In this document: in pieces, positions 2,640-32,639 of the stretch
Numbering within the stretch: position 1 is the stretch's first letter
Layout: every line of letters begins with the position of its first letter
Virus record (IMG/VR): IMGVR_UViG_3300025128_000101
Span: 1 to 42,067 of that record
Source of the DNA: a virus
DNA length: 42,067 nt
Reading direction: 5' to 3' (one strand)
Made by a program: the position numbers and the translations under genes
Notes under the pieces: model-generated
Told to the model about the DNA's origin: nothing
Databases searched by the model: none
What the model saw: only the letters and a program-made list of their open reading frames with translations

Positions 2640-2981
2640 ATGGCAGTAAAGAGAACACTAATACAAGCCGTTCCAGGAAACGAGGATGGTAAGGTAGTTC
2701 GTTGGAATCTTGAAATGAAATACGAGCAAGGCACTGAAGGCCAAGCGGATTACTACACAAATACTAAACGTGAATCAATTGAGGCTACTGAAACAAACGC
2801 AGACGGCTCAACTACTTCCAACTTTACCCCAAAAGCTGAAGGTGATTGGACTAAAAAAGAACTTGAAGATCTTTGCCCAATAGCTAAATGGGATGTGATA
2901 TTTGCAAGTCAGTATGATTCTGTAATTACTAACCCCGTTAAAAATCCAGAACCAAATAACGAGTTTGTGATACCTAGCTAA
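2640..2981 (+). CDS. Hypothetical protein downstream of tail fibre
   Basis: A 113-residue acidic soluble protein with no signal peptide or membrane segment. It starts 9 bases after the fibre stop, behind AGGAGAATAAA, and its last codon overlaps the start of the oxygenase gene, so all three are probably one transcript. The N-terminal half is rich in charged and polar residues, and the C-terminal part (DLCPIAKWDVIFA) looks folded. I do not recognise the family. The position suggests a fibre accessory or assembly protein, which is inference only. Confidence 0.7.
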   Translation: MAVKRTLIQAVPGNEDGKVVRWNLEMKYEQGTEGQADYYTNTKRESIEATETNADGSTTSNFTPKAEGDWTKKELEDLCPIAKWDVIFASQYDSVITNPVKNPEPNNEFVIPS

Positions 2982-3685
2982 TGGAGCCGCAACCCTATAC
3001 ATTTCATACGCTACCCGCAGTATTTATGATGGAAGCGCAACTGTCTGAAAAAATGGTAGGTACACTTAACGACTACCTAGACAAGCTAATGGTAGATGAA
3101 AGCCGAATAGATCACTCAGGTACTTTGGTAGGGCAAATAGGCCACGGGCAACAGCTTACAATGGATCATCTTTGTGAGGAGTTAAAAGATTTTAATTGGT
3201 TGATTCAAGGTTTGGCAATGGACTATGTAAAGCAGTTCTGCGCTCAGTCTGGTAATTCGCTAACAGGTAAAAGAGAGGTATTAACCGATGAGCTTTGGTC
3301 TGTTCATTCTTACGCTGGCGATTATAATCCCATACACGATCATGGTACTAAAACTATTATGGGAGTCTCCTGCACCACATGGACAAAAGTACCACAACAG
3401 ATCTTAGATCAGCCTGCGTCAGGAAGCCCAGAATACAGCCTGTATAACGCATCTGGTAATGCAGACGGTTGCCTTGCGTTTAGTTATGGCCGAAACAGTT
3501 TATTAGATACGGAGCGTTTAGCTCCCCCGCAAAGTTTTGTAATTAAGCCAGAAGTCGGAAAGTTTTTGATGTTTCCTAGCTGGCTAACACACATGGTTTA
3601 CCCCTTCGAGGGTGATGGAGAACGGCGCACTGTCGCTGCAAATTTAAACGTATGGAAGGTAGAGGAAGATGGAACAAGACACTAA
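2981..3685 (+). CDS. 2OG-Fe(II) oxygenase family protein
   Basis: The 234-residue protein matches the putative 2OG-Fe(II) oxygenase type common in marine phages. NPIHDHGTKT (His119, Asp120, His121) supplies the proximal metal ligands. FPSWLTHMV (His204) supplies the distal His. Arg215/Arg216 after GDGE are placed to bind the 2-oxoglutarate carboxylate. Members hydroxylate protein, nucleotide or small-molecule substrates; nothing here shows which. It lies in the fibre operon, overlapping the previous gene by one base and the next by 17. Hydroxylation of a virion protein is one possibility. Confidence 0.82.
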   Translation: MEPQPYTFHTLPAVFMMEAQLSEKMVGTLNDYLDKLMVDESRIDHSGTLVGQIGHGQQLTMDHLCEELKDFNWLIQGLAMDYVKQFCAQSGNSLTGKREVLTDELWSVHSYAGDYNPIHDHGTKTIMGVSCTTWTKVPQQILDQPASGSPEYSLYNASGNADGCLAFSYGRNSLLDTERLAPPQSFVIKPEVGKFLMFPSWLTHMVYPFEGDGERRTVAANLNVWKVEEDGTRH

Positions 3686-26744: not shown

Positions 26745-26775
26745 CTTTACTTCCAAATAAAAAGTAAAGTAGAAT
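26745..26775 (+). promoter_or_regulatory. Putative promoter, CTTTACTT type (copy 2)
   Basis: TTTACT (26746-26751), 18-base spacer, TAGAAT (26770-26775). CTTTACTT also forms an inverted repeat with AAGTAAAG just downstream, so the site may be an operator too. It opens the DNA-modification operon at 26800. Confidence 0.5.
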
Positions 26776-26799: not shown

Positions 26800-27300
26800 A
26801 TGAATATATTTGTTACTGACCCAGACCCAGTAATAAGTGCCCAGACGCTGTGTGATAAACACGTTGTCAAGATGGTACTTGAGTCAGCTCAGATGTTATC
26901 CACTGCGTGGCGCGAATACTCGTCAGAGTATTCAGACGAACACGCACTATATAAAACCGCACATCTTAATCACCCCTGTAGTATTTGGGTTCGACTAGCT
27001 CGAGAGAATTATAGGTGGCTATATAAACACTTCGTTGCGCTATGTGAAGAATACACACACCGTTACGAGAAAAGCCATGCTTCTTCCAGACTTAAAGGGC
27101 CGCTAATGTGGGCTCCTTTCAACCCCCGTTCTGTTTTGGCTAAGATAGAAGACCCCTACGGTTTTGTACTAGCAATGCCAGATGAATATAAGTCAGACGA
27201 TGTATTTGACTCTTATCAAAATTATTTAATAAACGAAAAACAACATTTTGCTAAATGGGAAAAAGACCCTAGCCGCAAACCAACATGGTGGAGAACTTAA
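26800..27300 (+). CDS. Pyrimidine-dimer DNA glycosylase-like protein
   Basis: A 166-residue protein whose layout follows the T4 endonuclease V family. DKHVVKMVLES aligns with the T4 segment DQH...E, and its Glu28 matches catalytic Glu23. ARENYRWLYKHFVALCEEYTHR matches the long central helix. RKPTWW matches the C-terminal PTW. Position 2 is Asn rather than the Thr whose amino group is the T4 nucleophile. It could repair UV lesions or act on modified bases. First gene of the operon, strong AAAGGAG site, stop overlapping the methyltransferase start. Confidence 0.62.
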   Translation: MNIFVTDPDPVISAQTLCDKHVVKMVLESAQMLSTAWREYSSEYSDEHALYKTAHLNHPCSIWVRLARENYRWLYKHFVALCEEYTHRYEKSHASSRLKGPLMWAPFNPRSVLAKIEDPYGFVLAMPDEYKSDDVFDSYQNYLINEKQHFAKWEKDPSRKPTWWRT

Positions 27301-28163
27301 TGGCTTCTATTAGAAAGAAACTCGAAGAAAACGCAAACAACAGTAAAAACACTCGCATGGATATTGCCAGTGGAAATATGCTAGGAAACTGGCGACCTGA
27401 CGAAATAACACACATGACTCGTTACGATAAGATTTCCTCGCTGTGTATCGAAGAAGCGAAAATGTTAAGCAGACCTGTTAATGTGTTAGAAGCAGGGTGC
27501 GGAGAGATATGGGTTCTTAGGAACTTGTACAAAGCCTACACCGTTAAGAAGTCTGATGTGATCGCTTCTTATCGGGGAGTAGATATAGACCCCGCTTGTT
27601 TAAATGAGAAGCAAGGGTACAACAGCCCTACTGGGTTAGTTGAAGACTCTACTTGGTTTAAGAACTTTAACGGCAAGATTGATATTCAAGACCTCACCGT
27701 TAACCCTGTGTTCGATTTACCAGACAACTCTATTGATTTCTTCTGGACTACAGAAGTTATTGAGCATATGGGTAGTCAGTACATATCGGCATGGCTTGAT
27801 GACGCTAACCGTGTTCTGAGACCAGGAGGATTAATTTACGTTTCTACTCCTAACCACGATGGCTCTAACGACAAGCTCCCTGAAGATCATGTATACGAGT
27901 GGGGGTTCGATGAACTTAAGAAAGAACTAACTCGACAATCTCGAGGCTGGTTTTTACAGTCGGTTGTCGGTACGTTTGCTCAGATGCCTAAGTTGAAAGC
28001 AGCTATGCATAAAGACCACGAAGACGGGGAGTGGCGGTTAACGGAAGACCAGTTCGAGCTATTACAGGAACGCTACGGTAAACAGTTTCTTAGAGTAGTA
28101 GCCGCGACGTACTTCCCAGAAGTCTCTAACAACTGTGCTTGGATCCTAAGAAAGAGAATATGA
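27300..28163 (+). CDS. Class I SAM-dependent methyltransferase
   Basis: A 287-residue Rossmann methyltransferase. Motif I is VLEAGCGEIW (about 62-71). The acidic end of strand 2 is GVDID (about 95). Motif IV region is SIDFFWTTEVIEHMG, and the post-motif is RVLRPGGLIYVSTPNH. No target-recognition domain or (D/N)PPY motif is present, so it is not a standard N-methylating DNA methylase. The start is ATG 27300, overlapping the previous stop (TAATG). Between two base-modification-type genes, it may methylate a modified base or nucleotide; substrate unknown. Confidence 0.75.
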   Translation: MASIRKKLEENANNSKNTRMDIASGNMLGNWRPDEITHMTRYDKISSLCIEEAKMLSRPVNVLEAGCGEIWVLRNLYKAYTVKKSDVIASYRGVDIDPACLNEKQGYNSPTGLVEDSTWFKNFNGKIDIQDLTVNPVFDLPDNSIDFFWTTEVIEHMGSQYISAWLDDANRVLRPGGLIYVSTPNHDGSNDKLPEDHVYEWGFDELKKELTRQSRGWFLQSVVGTFAQMPKLKAAMHKDHEDGEWRLTEDQFELLQERYGKQFLRVVAATYFPEVSNNCAWILRKRI

Positions 28164-29065
28164 GCTTTATTGATGAAGAGATCAACCGCTACCTCTACTG
28201 GATAGAGGAGCGGGAGAGTATTCGGATTAAAAAAGAAGACGCTGACGCTGACCCGCCTTGGACTGAAGATGAGATCTTTAAGATGTTTAAGTTCTGCCAA
28301 GTCTATCGAGAAGACGACAGAACGACTCGGTGGTTTGCGGCACATATTCGCAGACCGCTATCAACGGAGCCTGAAGTAATTATGGCTACCATTATCTTTA
28401 GGTTCTTTAATCTGATCGAGACTGGGAGAACTATGCTGGAGCATAACCTACACCTCGACTGGGACAGAGAGAAGGCGATCGAAGAGATCAGCAAGCAGCC
28501 TAAGTGGGTGACAGGAGCTTATATCGTTAAGACTCCTAACCGTATGAACAAGGTCATGGGAGCTGCTGAGTGTGTTACGCATATCTGGGTTGAGCGAGAG
28601 AATCTTATCTCCTCCTTAGAAAAGATGACTACGTTAGAGGAAGCATGGAACTTCCTGCTACAGTACCCGTACATTGGGCCGTTTGTCGCTTACGAGATTG
28701 TAACCGACCTAAGACACACCTATGTGTTAGACGAAGCCACGGACATCTGTAGTTGGGCCAACGCTGGTCCAGGAGCTATGCGAGGGTTAAACCGACTTAC
28801 GGGCAGACCGCTAGAGTTCTGTAAACGCTCTCACGATTGGAACGGGGAGATGCAAGACCTCTACTCTATCTGCAAAGACCGGTTACAGATTAAGTATCGG
28901 ATGCCGTTTGAGATGCGGGAGGTAGAAGGAGGTCTATGTGAGTTTGACAAATACTCTCGGATCTTAAAGGGGCAAGGACGGACTCGCAGTATCTACGACT
29001 ACTCGCAGAGGAAGCGACCGATAATTGAAGACTTAGAAAAAGGGGAAAGCAAATGGGCAAACTAA
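28160..29065 (+). CDS. Putative DNA base hypermodification protein (HMUDK helical / aGPT-Pplase type)
   Basis: A 301-residue all-helical protein. It matches the family described with phage thymine hypermodification, often annotated '5-hmdU DNA kinase, helical domain' or 'putative DNA base hypermodification protein'. Hallmarks are YWIEERESIRIKKE (13-26), PPWTEDEIF (32-40), KFCQVYREDDRTTRW (44-58), TGAYIV (118-123), GPFVAYEIVTDLRHT (173-187) and WANAGPGAMRGLNRL (199-213). In characterised systems such proteins act on 5-hydroxymethyl-dU already in DNA. No P-loop kinase is fused or nearby. The start ATG 28160 overlaps the methyltransferase stop (ATGA). Confidence 0.75.
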   Translation: MSFIDEEINRYLYWIEERESIRIKKEDADADPPWTEDEIFKMFKFCQVYREDDRTTRWFAAHIRRPLSTEPEVIMATIIFRFFNLIETGRTMLEHNLHLDWDREKAIEEISKQPKWVTGAYIVKTPNRMNKVMGAAECVTHIWVERENLISSLEKMTTLEEAWNFLLQYPYIGPFVAYEIVTDLRHTYVLDEATDICSWANAGPGAMRGLNRLTGRPLEFCKRSHDWNGEMQDLYSICKDRLQIKYRMPFEMREVEGGLCEFDKYSRILKGQGRTRSIYDYSQRKRPIIEDLEKGESKWAN

Positions 29066-29295
29066 AGCAGCACCTGATGGAAACATCTAGTTTACAGGTT
29101 ACTTGGGTGATGACTAAGTACGGACAGTTCCTACACCGGTGTATGGAAGATCACAGTCTCCCTAACACTTGGAAGGACGCTATTTCATGGATCCACACAG
29201 AACAACAAAACATCGGAGGTACGGGTTGGGTTTCTCTCCTCCAGATCGAACAAGTTTTAATTGACAATACGGAGAGCTTGTATGAAGACGATTAG
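29053..29295 (+). CDS. Small hypothetical protein in modification operon
   Basis: An 80-residue protein containing KYGQFLHRCMEDHSLPNTWKD and an acidic end. It overlaps the upstream gene by 13 bases and the ThyA-like gene by 14, with AAAGGGGAAAG as ribosome site. No domain recognised. Its place suggests a partner of one of the flanking enzymes. Confidence 0.6.
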   Translation: MGKLKQHLMETSSLQVTWVMTKYGQFLHRCMEDHSLPNTWKDAISWIHTEQQNIGGTGWVSLLQIEQVLIDNTESLYEDD

Positions 29296-30349
29296 AGCTC
29301 GGAATGTAGATGAAGCTCTTTATTTAGGAGTGGACTTCTTTCGAGGGCCAGAGGGTGTTAACTATAGAAAGCAAGAAAGTAGAAATGGAATAACGAGAGA
29401 GTCTATTGGCCCTGTGGTTACGCACTACACGAGACCTTGGGAGCGTGTTTCGTTTCAGAAAGAACGAGATGCAAATCCTTTCTTTCATTTGTACGAAGCT
29501 ATCTGGATGTTAGCAGGATCTAATAAGCTGAAAAAGCTGACTTACTTCAACGCAGGTATGGCTGACTTTTCAGACGATGGCGAGACATTAAACGGGGCTT
29601 ACGGTTATAGATGGGCTAAGACCTTTATGACTAATCAGATTGATCTGGTTATAAAGATGTTAAAGGAAGACCCAGACTCTAGGCGATGTGTTCTACAGAT
29701 GTGGGATGCGACACACGATCTAAATAGCTCGAGTATCGACATACCTTGTAACACAAACATCTATTTTAAAATCAGAGATGGGAAACTACAGATGACTGTC
29801 TGTAATCGGTCGAACGATATGATTTGGGGAGCTTACGGGGCTAACGCAGTTCATATGTCAATACTGATGGAGTACGTTGCCGTTACAGTAAACGCTCCAA
29901 TGGGATCGTACTATCAGATAAGCGACAGCTTCCACGTGTATGAAAATAAAGTATGGGACAAAGTAAAAGACCTCTCAGGAAAGGGCTTCGGTTCGTGGTT
30001 CTCGTCTACTTATCCTACACCTCATTACCCACTAGTCTCAGATCCAGAAACTTTTACTGACGAGTGTCTTCATTTTATAGAAACGACACCTCCTACTCGA
30101 CGGTCTGGAAACCCAGAAGAGGTAGATGACTTTTCAACGTCGTTTACCAAGGAAGTTTACAACAACAAGTTCTTTTCTGATGTGATGATTCCCATGGTTT
30201 CGGCATTTAGAAGCCATAAAGAAAGGAACTACAAGGAGGCGTATGACCATCTTAAAGAAATTAAAGCGTTGGATTGGCAAGAAGCCTCGTTCCACTGGAT
30301 TAAACGAAGACAACTTAACTGGGAGACTAAACATGGGGCTGGATCCTAA
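29282..30349 (+). CDS. ThyA-family thymidylate synthase / dUMP hydroxymethylase-like enzyme
   Basis: A 355-residue ThyA-fold enzyme. It has the catalytic Cys156 in DIPCNTN, phosphate-binding Arg134/Arg135 (PDSRRC), NRSND with Arg176 and Asp179, Asn188 in GANAVHM (equivalent to E. coli Asn177, which selects uracil over cytosine), and HVY (His218, Tyr220). The substrate is therefore probably dUMP. It lacks the usual C-terminal P-x-x-x-AV folate-closing tail and has about 130 residues of helical extension instead. This deviation and the neighbouring hypermodification gene favour dUMP hydroxymethylase over plain TMP synthesis. Start ATG 29282 is behind GGAGAG. Confidence 0.75.
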   Translation: MKTIRARNVDEALYLGVDFFRGPEGVNYRKQESRNGITRESIGPVVTHYTRPWERVSFQKERDANPFFHLYEAIWMLAGSNKLKKLTYFNAGMADFSDDGETLNGAYGYRWAKTFMTNQIDLVIKMLKEDPDSRRCVLQMWDATHDLNSSSIDIPCNTNIYFKIRDGKLQMTVCNRSNDMIWGAYGANAVHMSILMEYVAVTVNAPMGSYYQISDSFHVYENKVWDKVKDLSGKGFGSWFSSTYPTPHYPLVSDPETFTDECLHFIETTPPTRRSGNPEEVDDFSTSFTKEVYNNKFFSDVMIPMVSAFRSHKERNYKEAYDHLKEIKALDWQEASFHWIKRRQLNWETKHGAGS

Positions 30350-30683
30350 ATGGCACAACATTAAATCAATCGCACAAGACGACATTAATAGTCTGATTGA
30401 ATCTGAGAAGTCTTACGGGGACTCTTGGAAGCGTAGGGGAGGAACAGGGGCTTTCATGATGTTAGCCCGTAAGTTCGACCGCATCGAGCAGCAGAGTAAA
30501 GACTGTAACTACGATGTGTTTGAGGCCGGTGGTAAATACACCGGAGAGGACGGTCTGCTGGACGACATAGGGGATCTAAGACGATACCTATTCTTAGTAG
30601 AGGACGAAATTAGAAGCAATAACATAACAGGGAGGATAGAACATTGGGAGTCAAAAGACGAATCAACTACTGGTTCAGACTAA
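30333..30683 (+). CDS. Nucleotide modification associated domain 1 (DUF1599)-like protein
   Basis: A 116-residue protein with ESEKSYGDSWKRRGGTGAFM, LARKFDRIEQQ and DGLLDDIGDLRRYLFLVEDE. These match my memory of the DUF1599/Nmad1 family, named for association with nucleotide-modification genes; members resemble all-alpha NTP pyrophosphatases. ATG 30333 is preferred over the upstream 30243, because it begins at the conserved part and overlaps the ThyA-like gene by only 17 bases. It could sanitise the dNTP pool, for instance hydrolysing a canonical nucleotide in favour of a modified one. Confidence 0.62.
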   Translation: MGLDPKWHNIKSIAQDDINSLIESEKSYGDSWKRRGGTGAFMMLARKFDRIEQQSKDCNYDVFEAGGKYTGEDGLLDDIGDLRRYLFLVEDEIRSNNITGRIEHWESKDESTTGSD

Positions 30684-30820
30684 AGGTTTTAGTGTTGTTC
30701 TTTAAGATGAAATGGAACAAGGCTGCTAAAGTTAAATTGAAGAAGTTCGACCCAGAGTTACACAATAAGAAAGAAGAAGATGAATCAGAGACAGATACCC
30801 CTAATCACTCCAGAAAGTAA
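30644..30820 (+). CDS. Small basic protein (58 aa, TTG start)
   Basis: A TTG at 30644 lies 8 bases after GGGAGG, a strong ribosome site. It opens a 58-residue frame with an aromatic/basic helix (RRINYWFRLKVLVLFFKMKW) and a charged tail. It overlaps the preceding gene by 40 bases and the polymerase start by 41, both in other frames. Could be a membrane-associated peptide or a chance frame. Confidence 0.4.
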   Translation: MGVKRRINYWFRLKVLVLFFKMKWNKAAKVKLKKFDPELHNKKEEDESETDTPNHSRK

Positions 30821-32639
30821 CTGGTCGGCTCCCGACGTTCTACCTCGGTTTGACGAGAAGGAACTGTTGGCGATCGACTTAGAGACTTGTGACCCAGCTC
30901 TCCGTGAAAGGGGGCCAGGATGGGCGGCGGGTGATGGACATATTGTAGGCATCGCGATTGCCTCTTCCTCGTGGAGTGGGTATCTACCCATTAGACACGA
31001 AGGCGGGGGGAACTTAGAAGAAGAAATAGTGCTGCGTTGGCTAAAGCGCACCCTTACCAACCATAAGGGTCCTTTAGTTTTCCACAATGCACTCTACGAT
31101 GTGGGTTGGTTGAAGCGCGAGGGCATAGACTTAACGTGTCAAATCTACGATACGATGTTTGCTGCTCCTCTGCTCGACGAACACCGCCGCTCATACTCTC
31201 TTAACGCATTGGGGAAGGACTACTGTGCGTCAGAGAAGGATGAATCTCTGTTAGAAGACGCCGCTCGATCATGGGGAGTAAATCCCAAGTCGGGGATGTA
31301 TGTTTTACCGGCTAAGTATGTCGGTCCATACGCAGAGCAAGATGCAGTACTCACTCTACAGTTATGGAATCAGCTCTACCCTAGAATCCAGGAAGAAGGA
31401 TTAGAAAAGATTTTCAAGCTAGAGTGTGACTTGATTCCACTGTTGATTGAGATGCGATGGAAAGGAGTGCGAGTTGATTTAGATCGAGCAGAACAAGTAG
31501 CCGAAGAACTGTCGAAAAAAGAACAGCAGCTACTGGTTGAGTTTAAGAGAAAGTTTGGAACTACTGTAGAAATCTGGGCTAACGCCTCGATTCAGAAGGC
31601 TTTTGAAGCTAACGATATCTGGTATCCACGTACCGAGAAAGGTATGGCGAGTTTCCAAGCCCCGTGGTTAGAAGCCCATGACCACGATCTACCAAAAATG
31701 ATTGTTCAGGCCCGAAAGATTAATAAGGCTCGAACTACCTTTGTTGAGAAGATGATACTCGGTCATCAGTCTAACGGTCGGATACACGCGGAAGCCCACC
31801 CCCTTAGAAACGATTCAGGAGGGACGGTAAGCGGTCGGTTTAGCTATACGAACCCGAATCTACAGCAGGTTCCCGCTCGAGACCCCGAACTAGGGAAGCT
31901 AATTAGATCCCTCTTTATACCGGAACAGGACGCGATCTGGGGGGCGTTCGACTATTCCCAACAGGAACCTAGATTAACCGTACATTACGCTAATAAGATG
32001 AACCTACGGGGAGCAGCAGACGCGGTTAAAGCCTACTCGGAAGACGGAGCTGATTTCCACCAGATTGTAGCGGATATGGCTAATATCCCTAGAAAACAAG
32101 CCAAGAATATCAACTTAGGACTCACCTACGGGATGGGTCATGCCAAGTTAATTAAAGAATTGGGGGTAGAGGAGGACGAAGCTCGCACTCTACTCGACCA
32201 ATACCACCATAGAGTACCGTTCATTAGAGCGTTACAAGATCAGTGTGCTAGGGTGGCATTAGAGCGAGGACATATAAAAACACTCGGAGGAAGAAAGTGC
32301 CGATTTGATCGATGGGAGCCTGTCCACGGGGACGGTCTACCTCTACCAGAAGAAGAGGCGCGAGATACCTACGGGAACATAAGACGTTCTTACACATACA
32401 AAGCACTGAACAGGCTAATTCAGGGTTCGGCAGCAGACATGACGAAAATTGCGATGTTAGACCTTTGGAAAGAGGGGTATATCCCTCACTTACAAATCCA
32501 TGACGAACTCGACTACTCGGTCGAATCGGAGAAGGAAGGTGAATTTATTATGGAGAAAATGTCAGAATGCGTAGACTTATCCGTACCACTAGTTGTGGAC
32601 GCAGAATATGGAGAAACTTGGGGAGACTCTGCAGAATGA
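30780..32639 (+). CDS. polA: Family A DNA polymerase with 3'-5' exonuclease domain (PolA)
   Basis: A 619-residue PolA-type replicase without a 5'-nuclease domain. Exonuclease motifs are LAIDLETCD (Exo I), FHNALYDVGWL (Exo II) and YAEQDAVLTLQ (Exo III). Polymerase motif A is WGAFDYSQQEPRL, motif B RKQAKNINLGLTYGMG, motif C QIHDELDYS. At the E. coli Phe762 position in motif B this enzyme has Leu446. It replicates the phage genome with the primase and helicase upstream. Its stop overlaps the next start (ATGA). The weak start region (AAGAAAGAAGAAG) suggests coupling to the upstream genes. Confidence 0.92.
   Translation: MNQRQIPLITPESNWSAPDVLPRFDEKELLAIDLETCDPALRERGPGWAAGDGHIVGIAIASSSWSGYLPIRHEGGGNLEEEIVLRWLKRTLTNHKGPLVFHNALYDVGWLKREGIDLTCQIYDTMFAAPLLDEHRRSYSLNALGKDYCASEKDESLLEDAARSWGVNPKSGMYVLPAKYVGPYAEQDAVLTLQLWNQLYPRIQEEGLEKIFKLECDLIPLLIEMRWKGVRVDLDRAEQVAEELSKKEQQLLVEFKRKFGTTVEIWANASIQKAFEANDIWYPRTEKGMASFQAPWLEAHDHDLPKMIVQARKINKARTTFVEKMILGHQSNGRIHAEAHPLRNDSGGTVSGRFSYTNPNLQQVPARDPELGKLIRSLFIPEQDAIWGAFDYSQQEPRLTVHYANKMNLRGAADAVKAYSEDGADFHQIVADMANIPRKQAKNINLGLTYGMGHAKLIKELGVEEDEARTLLDQYHHRVPFIRALQDQCARVALERGHIKTLGGRKCRFDRWEPVHGDGLPLPEEEARDTYGNIRRSYTYKALNRLIQGSAADMTKIAMLDLWKEGYIPHLQIHDELDYSVESEKEGEFIMEKMSECVDLSVPLVVDAEYGETWGDSAE

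Follow-up and report, generated by a model that had tools for sequence, protein, structure and literature searches.

A candidate thymine modification operon with a methyltransferase and without a 5-hydroxymethyl-dU kinase in a large group of uncultured phages

The window, i.e. the whole stretch of 42,067 nucleotides that was analysed, carries on its + strand all five genes named in the first-pass annotation, at the positions given for them (Table 1). The part from 27300 to 30683 is a genuine operon of four overlapping genes, followed by a DNA polymerase gene. The polymerase is found downstream of the cassette in 98 of 103 loci, and the gene order is constant in about 97 loci. The ATG codons at which the methyltransferase (MTase), HMUDK_hel, ThyA-family and last small gene begin in Table 1 are the likely starts in alignments with relatives; the MTase reading frame has an alternative start at 27285, and the MTase and HMUDK_hel genes are joined by an ATGA overlap. 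The dN/dS values of the operon genes against near relatives, about 0.06-0.13 where they could be estimated, indicate purifying selection. The gene for the 80 amino acid protein had been overlooked earlier, and Pfam and PHROG searches with its product gave no match. The carriers of the operon are a large group of uncultured phages. No bacterial or prophage relatives were confirmed in the genome contigs searched, and no dCMP deaminase was found in the clade.

Table 1. Genes of the operon and its flanks, with profile matches and occurrence
Feature	Position	Strand	Profile match (E value) or occurrence
Pyr_excise-family protein (phrog_624)	26800..27300	+	PF03013 5e-12
Class I SAM-dependent methyltransferase (MTase)	27300..28163	+	PF13489 1.4e-10
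HMUDK_hel-family protein, stand-alone	28160..29065	+	PF18723 3.9e-41; phrog_2396 1.3e-55
Small 80-aa protein	29053..29295	+	part of the clade only, 36/103 loci
Predicted dUMP hydroxymethylase (ThyA family)	29282..30349	+	PF00303 Thymidylat_synt 1.4e-22; phrog_5131 4.9e-106
Small conserved protein between hydroxymethylase and PolA	30333..30683	+	99/103 loci; Pam3_54 orthologue
Family A DNA polymerase (PolA)	30780..32639	+	phrog_17 3e-119

The flanking parts of the set had been described differently. The Pyr_excise gene, included in the pathway as a pyrimidine-dimer-glycosylase-like protein, is present in 57 of the 103 loci and missing upstream of the operon in G017, the nearest complete relative. 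Its family occurs in 598 phage records and is thus common in phages generally. Being both optional and widespread, it was rejected as a pathway enzyme, and it is probably an optional neighbour. T4 EndoV requires an N-terminal Thr as nucleophile after Met1; the Pyr_excise protein begins with M-N at the called start, so the Thr2 of T4 EndoV is not found. The label DUF1599/Nmad1-like for 30243-30683 was replaced: the DUF1599 profile PF07659 had zero matches in the window and 11 relatives, the small protein had no match in Pfam, and it is instead an orthologue (41-43% identity) of Pam3_54, which is annotated "nucleotide modification". The description of the set as promoter-led was also given up, since shuffles of the region yield more promoter-like sites than observed (9.2 expected, 3 observed). 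One 9/12 site is at 26746-26775.

Signature residues and orthology support the ThyA-family protein as a predicted dUMP hydroxymethylase. It is 41% identical to M6 gp58 and retains both catalytic residues, Cys (E. coli C146) and Glu (E58). The residues at E. coli positions 143, 146, 147 and 177 are D, C, N and N, the same as in M6, PaMx11 and Pam3. An Asp three residues before the Cys and a replaced Trp83 are traits of the T4 dCH hydroxymethylase (PMC6400193); both are present in the window, with Asp at E. coli Leu143 and F at Trp83, and Trp80/83 are lost. Asn177 is associated with uracil specificity (PMC5175136; PMC8670742), and the Asn at this position is the signature for uracil and not for cytosine, in agreement with the initial reading of a ThyA-family enzyme with a uracil-selecting Asn. 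It is highly improbable that the enzyme is an ordinary thymidylate synthase, the operon a set of nucleotide metabolism and unrelated genes, and the T in the DNA ordinary. Databases do name the family thymidylate synthase, but the Asp at 143, the Asn147 and the loss of Trp80/83 fit hydroxymethylases, and the nearest characterised relatives are the M6 and PaMx11 enzymes.

The identification of the 28160 gene as a base-hypermodification helical protein, and not a member of an unrelated family, was borne out by the PF18723 match, which has 141.7 bits against a cut-off of 25, covers positions 4-275 of 281 and retains the invariant family residues. The polar residues R57, D60, N91, D190, C267, E268 and K271 are invariant in all locus types. 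A structure model (pLDDT 91) matched MjOgg and the PaMx11 gp46 glycinyltransferase 8z2n in Foldseek with probabilities of 0.99 and 0.98, but with E values of 0.045-0.17. The similarity to ADDT profiles is weak (hhalign probability 32%), the motifs GP[WF] and EVE..LC are shared, and a PDB sequence search gave no meaningful relatives. The model points to a helix-hairpin-helix glycosylase or glycinyltransferase-like fold, and HMUDK_hel is proposed as a factor that may bind or present DNA with 5-hydroxymethyl-dU (5-hmdU). The likeness to gp46 and to HhH glycosylases, the common motifs and the residues invariant in all types would also suit a transferase that places a group on 5-hmdU directly, without phosphorylation, the MTase then methylating that group. 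Such a role is unlikely: in the known cases another protein transfers the amino acid (ADDT, gp46/8z2n), and HMUDK_hel, being retained with ADDT and with glycosyltransferases alike, is not tied to one group.

No match to the 5-hmdU kinase (PF18748 or phrog_800) was found in the window, where the sole Walker A motif belongs to a UvrD-like helicase, and PF18748 and the kinase part of phrog_800 gave no match on the whole contigs of about 75 relatives. M6, PaMx11, Pam3, Rhizobium phage I65 and SBSphiC matched the kinase profile. ADDT (PF18724) was not matched in the window or in the whole contigs of 38 relatives. The missing part of the genome, proposed earlier as the place to search for a kinase, was covered by way of three relatives of 61-63 kb that are complete by terminal repeats of about 98 bp; no kinase-like Walker A protein was found in them. 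A kinase hidden in the unsequenced part was rejected on the approximately 75 whole contigs, these three among them, and its absence, already noted from the window, is genuine. The helical domain without a kinase had been regarded as a reduced or novel pathway, of which the missing kinase stands, while the stand-alone helical protein is not new, since M6 gp55 and PaMx11 gp50 are stand-alone beside a separate kinase. A standard pathway, with 5-hmdU phosphorylated by a phage or host kinase that escaped recognition, is very unlikely. The family is divergent, with PaMx11 gp49 under the Pfam cut-off, and a few other loci do contain weak P-loop proteins, but the sensitive phrog_800 search was negative, Walker A proteins of kinase type are missing from the complete relatives, and a kinase alone makes no final product, ADDT also being missing. 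The glycosyltransferase families covered, TAGT (PF20691) and GT1 (PF00534), gave no match above the cut-off in any of 22 MTase-type contigs; these searches did detect positive contigs.

The 142 distinct HMUDK_hel proteins were found with the MTase (95), with the kinase (21, of which 17 also with ADDT), with a weak P-loop protein (4) or with none of these (22), and never with the MTase together with kinase or ADDT (0/142). Where MTase, kinase and P-loop protein are all lacking, TAGT was present in 10 of 12 viral contigs tested and a GT1-like protein in the remaining two (L281, L287 type); HMUDK_hel with TAGT and no kinase match is also the arrangement in the cultured phages LuckyBarnes and Morrigan. 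HMUDK_hel loci are of exchangeable types, with kinase and ADDT, a glycosyltransferase, or the MTase. Because the family also occurs with glycosyltransferases, its name does not imply a kinase partner.

The MTase, 85-92% identical in the nearest relatives, is present in 97 of the 103 loci, and almost every locus that is not truncated has it immediately before HMUDK_hel. Class I enzymes of this kind are promiscuous in substrate. The fold search gave the small-molecule type (RebM, TleD, MitM), and the only match to a DNA amino- or C5-methylase domain was a sub-threshold one to N6_N4 (E 0.078). Five matches were obtained among phage records, including AXL3, MW202510 and MW202621, each with the MTase near a hydroxymethylase. 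Of 80 viral loci of the AXL3 type, 66 contain a hydroxymethylase no more than 6 kb away, always of dCMP type; the MTases of the window and the AXL3 type are only 24-29% identical. HMUDK_hel was not found in the AXL3-type loci, and therefore MTase and HMUDK_hel need not act together; no carbamoyltransferase was found in AXL3-type contigs. The DNA of AXL3 withstands 35 of 37 enzymes (PMC7504290). Co-location of MTase and hydroxymethylase does not in itself prove the hydroxymethyl group to be the target of the MTase.

Judged from sequence and gene context, the MTase is probably the decorating enzyme and would O-methylate 5-hmdU to 5-methoxymethyl-dU. Action on the modified base, suggested in the first-pass annotation, is the best-supported mechanism, with the MTase in the decorator's place and its homologues beside dCMP hydroxymethylases. 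Alternatively, the DNA may contain plain 5-hmdU, with HMUDK_hel as a DNA-binding accessory and the MTase acting elsewhere, for example in RNA or protein methylation. The clear hydroxymethylase signature, the undecorated SPO1-type phages (PMC6400193) and a fold that only says small-molecule MTase agree with plain 5-hmdU, which is nevertheless improbable given that the MTase immediately precedes HMUDK_hel in nearly all uncut loci, takes the place of other decorators, and has homologues that accompany dCMP hydroxymethylases in another setting, unrelated to this one.

The evidence supports an operon for thymine modification, built on the predicted dUMP hydroxymethylase and the HMUDK_hel-family protein. 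The hydroxyl is phosphorylated and then exchanged for an amino acid in M6/PaMx11-type phages, and other phages glycosylate it. The whole model for the cassette, with a modified thymine in which the MTase caps 5-hmdU, most simply as 5-methoxymethyl-dU, has about an even chance of being right. The ThyA-family enzyme would convert dUMP to 5-hydroxymethyl-dUMP, as its signature residues and orthology suggest; by analogy with SPO1 and M6, host kinases would form the triphosphate and the phage PolA would insert it in place of T. The MTase would then O-methylate the hydroxymethyl group, on DNA or nucleotide, as the genomic context suggests. HMUDK_hel, kept with every decorator type, probably recognises or flips 5-hmdU for the decorating enzyme, which is the most weakly founded of the steps. 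The final product may shield the genome from nuclease-based host defence.

No description of 5-methoxymethyl-dU as a DNA base was found in the literature searched, and capping of 5-hmdU by the MTase would mean a new natural DNA base made by a short two-enzyme route in many environmental phages. A wider proposal is more tentative and somewhat more likely wrong than right: that the uncultured clade makes genomic 5-methoxymethyl-2'-deoxyuridine by hydroxymethylase and O-methyltransferase, and that AXL3-like phages make 5-methoxymethyl-dC with a homologue. Methyl-ether capping would then join glycosylation, amino-acid transfer and carbamoylation as a fourth general decoration of hydroxymethyl-pyrimidines, with a homologous form adjoining 5-hydroxymethyl-dC synthesis in the isolated, restriction-resistant AXL3. 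HMUDK_hel, named after the 5-hmdU kinase, accompanies kinase, glycosyltransferase and methyltransferase pathways and therefore marks the hydroxymethyl-pyrimidine core, not phosphorylation; the comparison makes its function testable and provides a marker for further thymine-modification chemistries.

The cassette gp51-gp58 of Pseudomonas phage M6, for thymidine hypermodification to 5-NedU, shares with the window the dUMP hydroxymethylase (41%) and a stand-alone HMUDK_hel / aGPT-Pplase1 protein (33%), both upstream of a family A polymerase. It differs in having a P-loop kinase (PF18748), ADDT (PF18724) and Nmad5, all absent from the window operon, as well as PLP and radical SAM enzymes, and in having no such MTase. 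Pseudanabaena phage Pam3 has HMUDK_hel, the hydroxymethylase and the orthologue of the 30333 protein, but also kinase, ADDT and Nmad5, and no such MTase. PaMx11, also a Pseudomonas phage, has the closest HMUDK_hel of an isolate (43%) and the same hydroxymethylase signature, in a cassette of gp46 glycinyltransferase, gp47, gp48, gp49 kinase, gp50 HMUDK_hel and gp51 hydroxymethylase; the operon in the window lacks its kinase, glycinyltransferase (8z2m/8z2n), FAD enzyme and acetyltransferase. Brevibacterium phage LuckyBarnes and Microbacterium phage Morrigan resemble the window in that they carry HMUDK_hel and a hydroxymethylase and give no match to the 5-hmdU kinase, but their decorator is a TET-associated glycosyltransferase and the hydroxymethylase of Morrigan is of dCMP type, unlike that of the window. 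The gp27-gp31 region of Stenotrophomonas phage AXL3 differs by its dCMP-type hydroxymethylase (D177), dNMP kinase, NTP-PPase and dCMP deaminase and by the lack of HMUDK_hel in the AXL3 type, and has in common with the window a homologous MTase near a pyrimidine hydroxymethylase.

The overlapping genes at 26800-30683, all on the + strand, are listed below; the Pyr_excise, methyltransferase, HMUDK_hel (PF18723) and ThyA assignments were each matched in family searches. The 42 kb virus record is incomplete. Many of its genes are collinear with, and 85-97% identical to, those of the nearest genome, G017 (61.6 kb), and G017 has extra genes past the matching part, apparently for packaging and structure. 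A 2OG-Fe(II) oxygenase (PF13759, phrog_81) is found among structural genes at 2981-3685, distant from the operon, and is 88-91% conserved in the nearest relatives.

Genes of the operon and the polymerase gene that follows it
Feature	Position	Strand	Basis
Pyr_excise-like gene	26800-27300	+	family search
methyltransferase (MTase)	27300-28163	+	family search
HMUDK_hel protein	28160-29065	+	family search
80-aa protein	29053-29295	+	
ThyA-family protein	29282-30349	+	family search
small protein	30333-30683	+	
family A DNA polymerase, after operon	30780-32639	+	

Aligned to E. coli TS, the ThyA-family protein keeps Glu58, Cys146, Arg166, Ser167, Asp169, Asn177, His207 and Tyr209, has Asp for Leu143 and Asn for His147, and lacks Trp80/83. 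Asp at 143 and loss of Trp83 are traits of water attack rather than hydride transfer in the T4 dCMP hydroxymethylase (PMC6400193), and position 177 is Asn in uracil enzymes and Asp in cytosine enzymes (PMC5175136; PMC8670742). Because of these traits and a residue pattern identical to that of the M6, PaMx11 and Pam3 phage hydroxymethylases, we call the protein a putative dUMP hydroxymethylase; 5-hydroxymethyl-dU (5-hmdU) would be expected in the phage DNA.

The operon is conserved in a near-fixed order among 103 viral loci, comprising MTase (97), HMUDK_hel (102), ThyA (102), the small protein (99) and the polymerase (98), with Pyr_excise optional (57/103). Comparison with the nearest relatives gave dN of 0.05-0.15 and dS of at least 0.75, the exception being the hydroxymethylase against locus L004, because the allele is different. 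The window hydroxymethylase shares 87-91% identity with L006/G006/G024 and only 59% with the otherwise nearest L004/G017, whereas the flanking genes are closer to L004/G017; the identities indicate that the allele was swapped inside the operon.

The MTase (METHYLTRANSFERASE) had tblastn matches in only five phage records. In the three inspected (AXL3, MW202510 and MW202621) it lies a few genes from an NTP-PPase, a dCMP deaminase and a hydroxymethylase of the dCMP type (D177). A scan seeded with the AXL3 MTase gave 80 MTase loci, none with HMUDK_hel; 66 had a hydroxymethylase within 6 kb, always of the dCMP type. The MTase is thus linked to two kinds of hydroxymethylase, the locus contexts placing the same family with 5-hydroxymethyl-dU synthesis here and 5-hydroxymethyl-dC synthesis in the AXL3 type, and the hydroxymethyl group is the chemical feature common to both. 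AXL3 DNA is cleaved by only 2 of 37 enzymes (PMC7504290). The predicted MTase fold is of the small-molecule methyltransferase type, not that of a DNA amino-methylase. The MTase would be the decorator, adding a group to the hydroxymethyl, and a methyl ether would be its simplest product. No report of 5-methoxymethyl bases in phage DNA was found among the open-access papers searched, which does not prove novelty.

The distinct HMUDK_hel proteins from a wider scan numbered 142. MTase accompanied 95 of them, kinase 21 (in 17 cases together with the amino acid:DNA transferase ADDT) and a weak P-loop protein 4; the other 22 had no such neighbour. The neighbourhoods were of at most 10 kb, some ended by a contig edge, and the sample follows similarity to the query. 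MTase was never found together with kinase or ADDT in these neighbourhoods. Of 12 viral contigs of this last type that were searched, 10 carried the TET-associated glycosyltransferase TAGT (PF20691), and L281/L287-type loci of this type have an FkbM methyltransferase and a GT1-like protein; neither TAGT nor GT1 scored above the cut-off in any of 22 MTase-type contigs tested; the decorator types are mutually exclusive. Decorator type switches at least 8 times in the HMUDK_hel tree, where the MTase rows adjoin a set with FkbM methyltransferase and GT1-like protein (SH-aLRT 93). Two phage isolates, LuckyBarnes and Morrigan, encode HMUDK_hel and TAGT and gave no kinase match. HMUDK_hel is thus tied to hydroxymethyl-pyrimidine synthesis, not phosphorylation.

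In the FkbM/GT loci L287 (10822-13099) and L281 (10850-13189) the order is HMUDK_hel, FkbM methyltransferase, small conserved protein, GT1-like glycosyltransferase and hydroxymethylase, possibly giving an O-methylated sugar on 5-hmdU. The weak P-loop protein sits between HMUDK_hel and hydroxymethylase in L280, L292, L324 and L326, which may represent another decorator type; L280 and L324 have an additional radical-SAM-like ORF. The Microbacterium phage Morrigan (L117) combines HMUDK_hel and TAGT with a dCMP-type hydroxymethylase, and the HMUDK_hel family is therefore not uracil-restricted.

The HMUDK_hel model, a confident one (pLDDT 91, pTM 0.89), had M. jannaschii 8-oxoguanine glycosylase and the PaMx11 glycinyltransferase as top Foldseek ranks (prob 0.99 and 0.98, but with E of 0.045-0.17), and profile comparison with ADDT gave only a weak match, through a hairpin motif and an EVE..LC motif. 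A helix-hairpin-helix protein of the base-flipping type is plausible. The polar residues R57, D60, N91, D190, C267, E268 and K271 are invariant in the kinase, glycosyltransferase and MTase types, so that the function is probably alike in all three; HMUDK_hel may act as a recognition factor. The small protein, which has no Pfam family, carries the strongly conserved motif YGDSWKRRGGxGAFMMLARKFDRIE and accompanies hydroxymethylase cassettes of the MTase and glycosyltransferase types as well as, in Pam3, one that has the kinase.

In M6 and PaMx11 a P-loop kinase (PF18748 / phrog_800) is encoded by the gene adjoining HMUDK_hel, with ADDT (PF18724) upstream; PaMx11 gp46 is the solved glycinyltransferase 8z2m/8z2n. 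The stand-alone helical domain pointed out in the first-pass annotation is not new, since HMUDK_hel already stands alone in both phages; the lack of a kinase is new. GenBank and phrog_800 both label the kinases themselves, M6 gp54 and PaMx11 gp49 (L002:8339-8902 and L003:8348-8917), as terminase small subunit, a label that can mislead automatic annotation. The initial observation that a 5-hmdU kinase is lacking was borne out, complete genomes included: profile searches gave no match in the window or about 35 relatives, nor in 40 further contigs, where the sole phrog_800 matches were to the helical half of the profile. ADDT was not found in the window or in whole contigs of 38 relatives by profile search. 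The Walker A motifs of G017, G021 and G022, judged complete by terminal repeats of about 98 bp, belong to a UvrD-like helicase and large proteins of about 500-590 aa; G022 has one more, in an ORF of 176 aa without a match to any kinase profile. Among the 103 viral loci only L058 and L059, both distant, have kinase/ADDT. The absence of kinase and ADDT is genuine. Because the defining parts of the kinase/ADDT pathway were tested for and not found, the window cassette is no member of that pathway, yet it works like a thymidine-hypermodification cassette.
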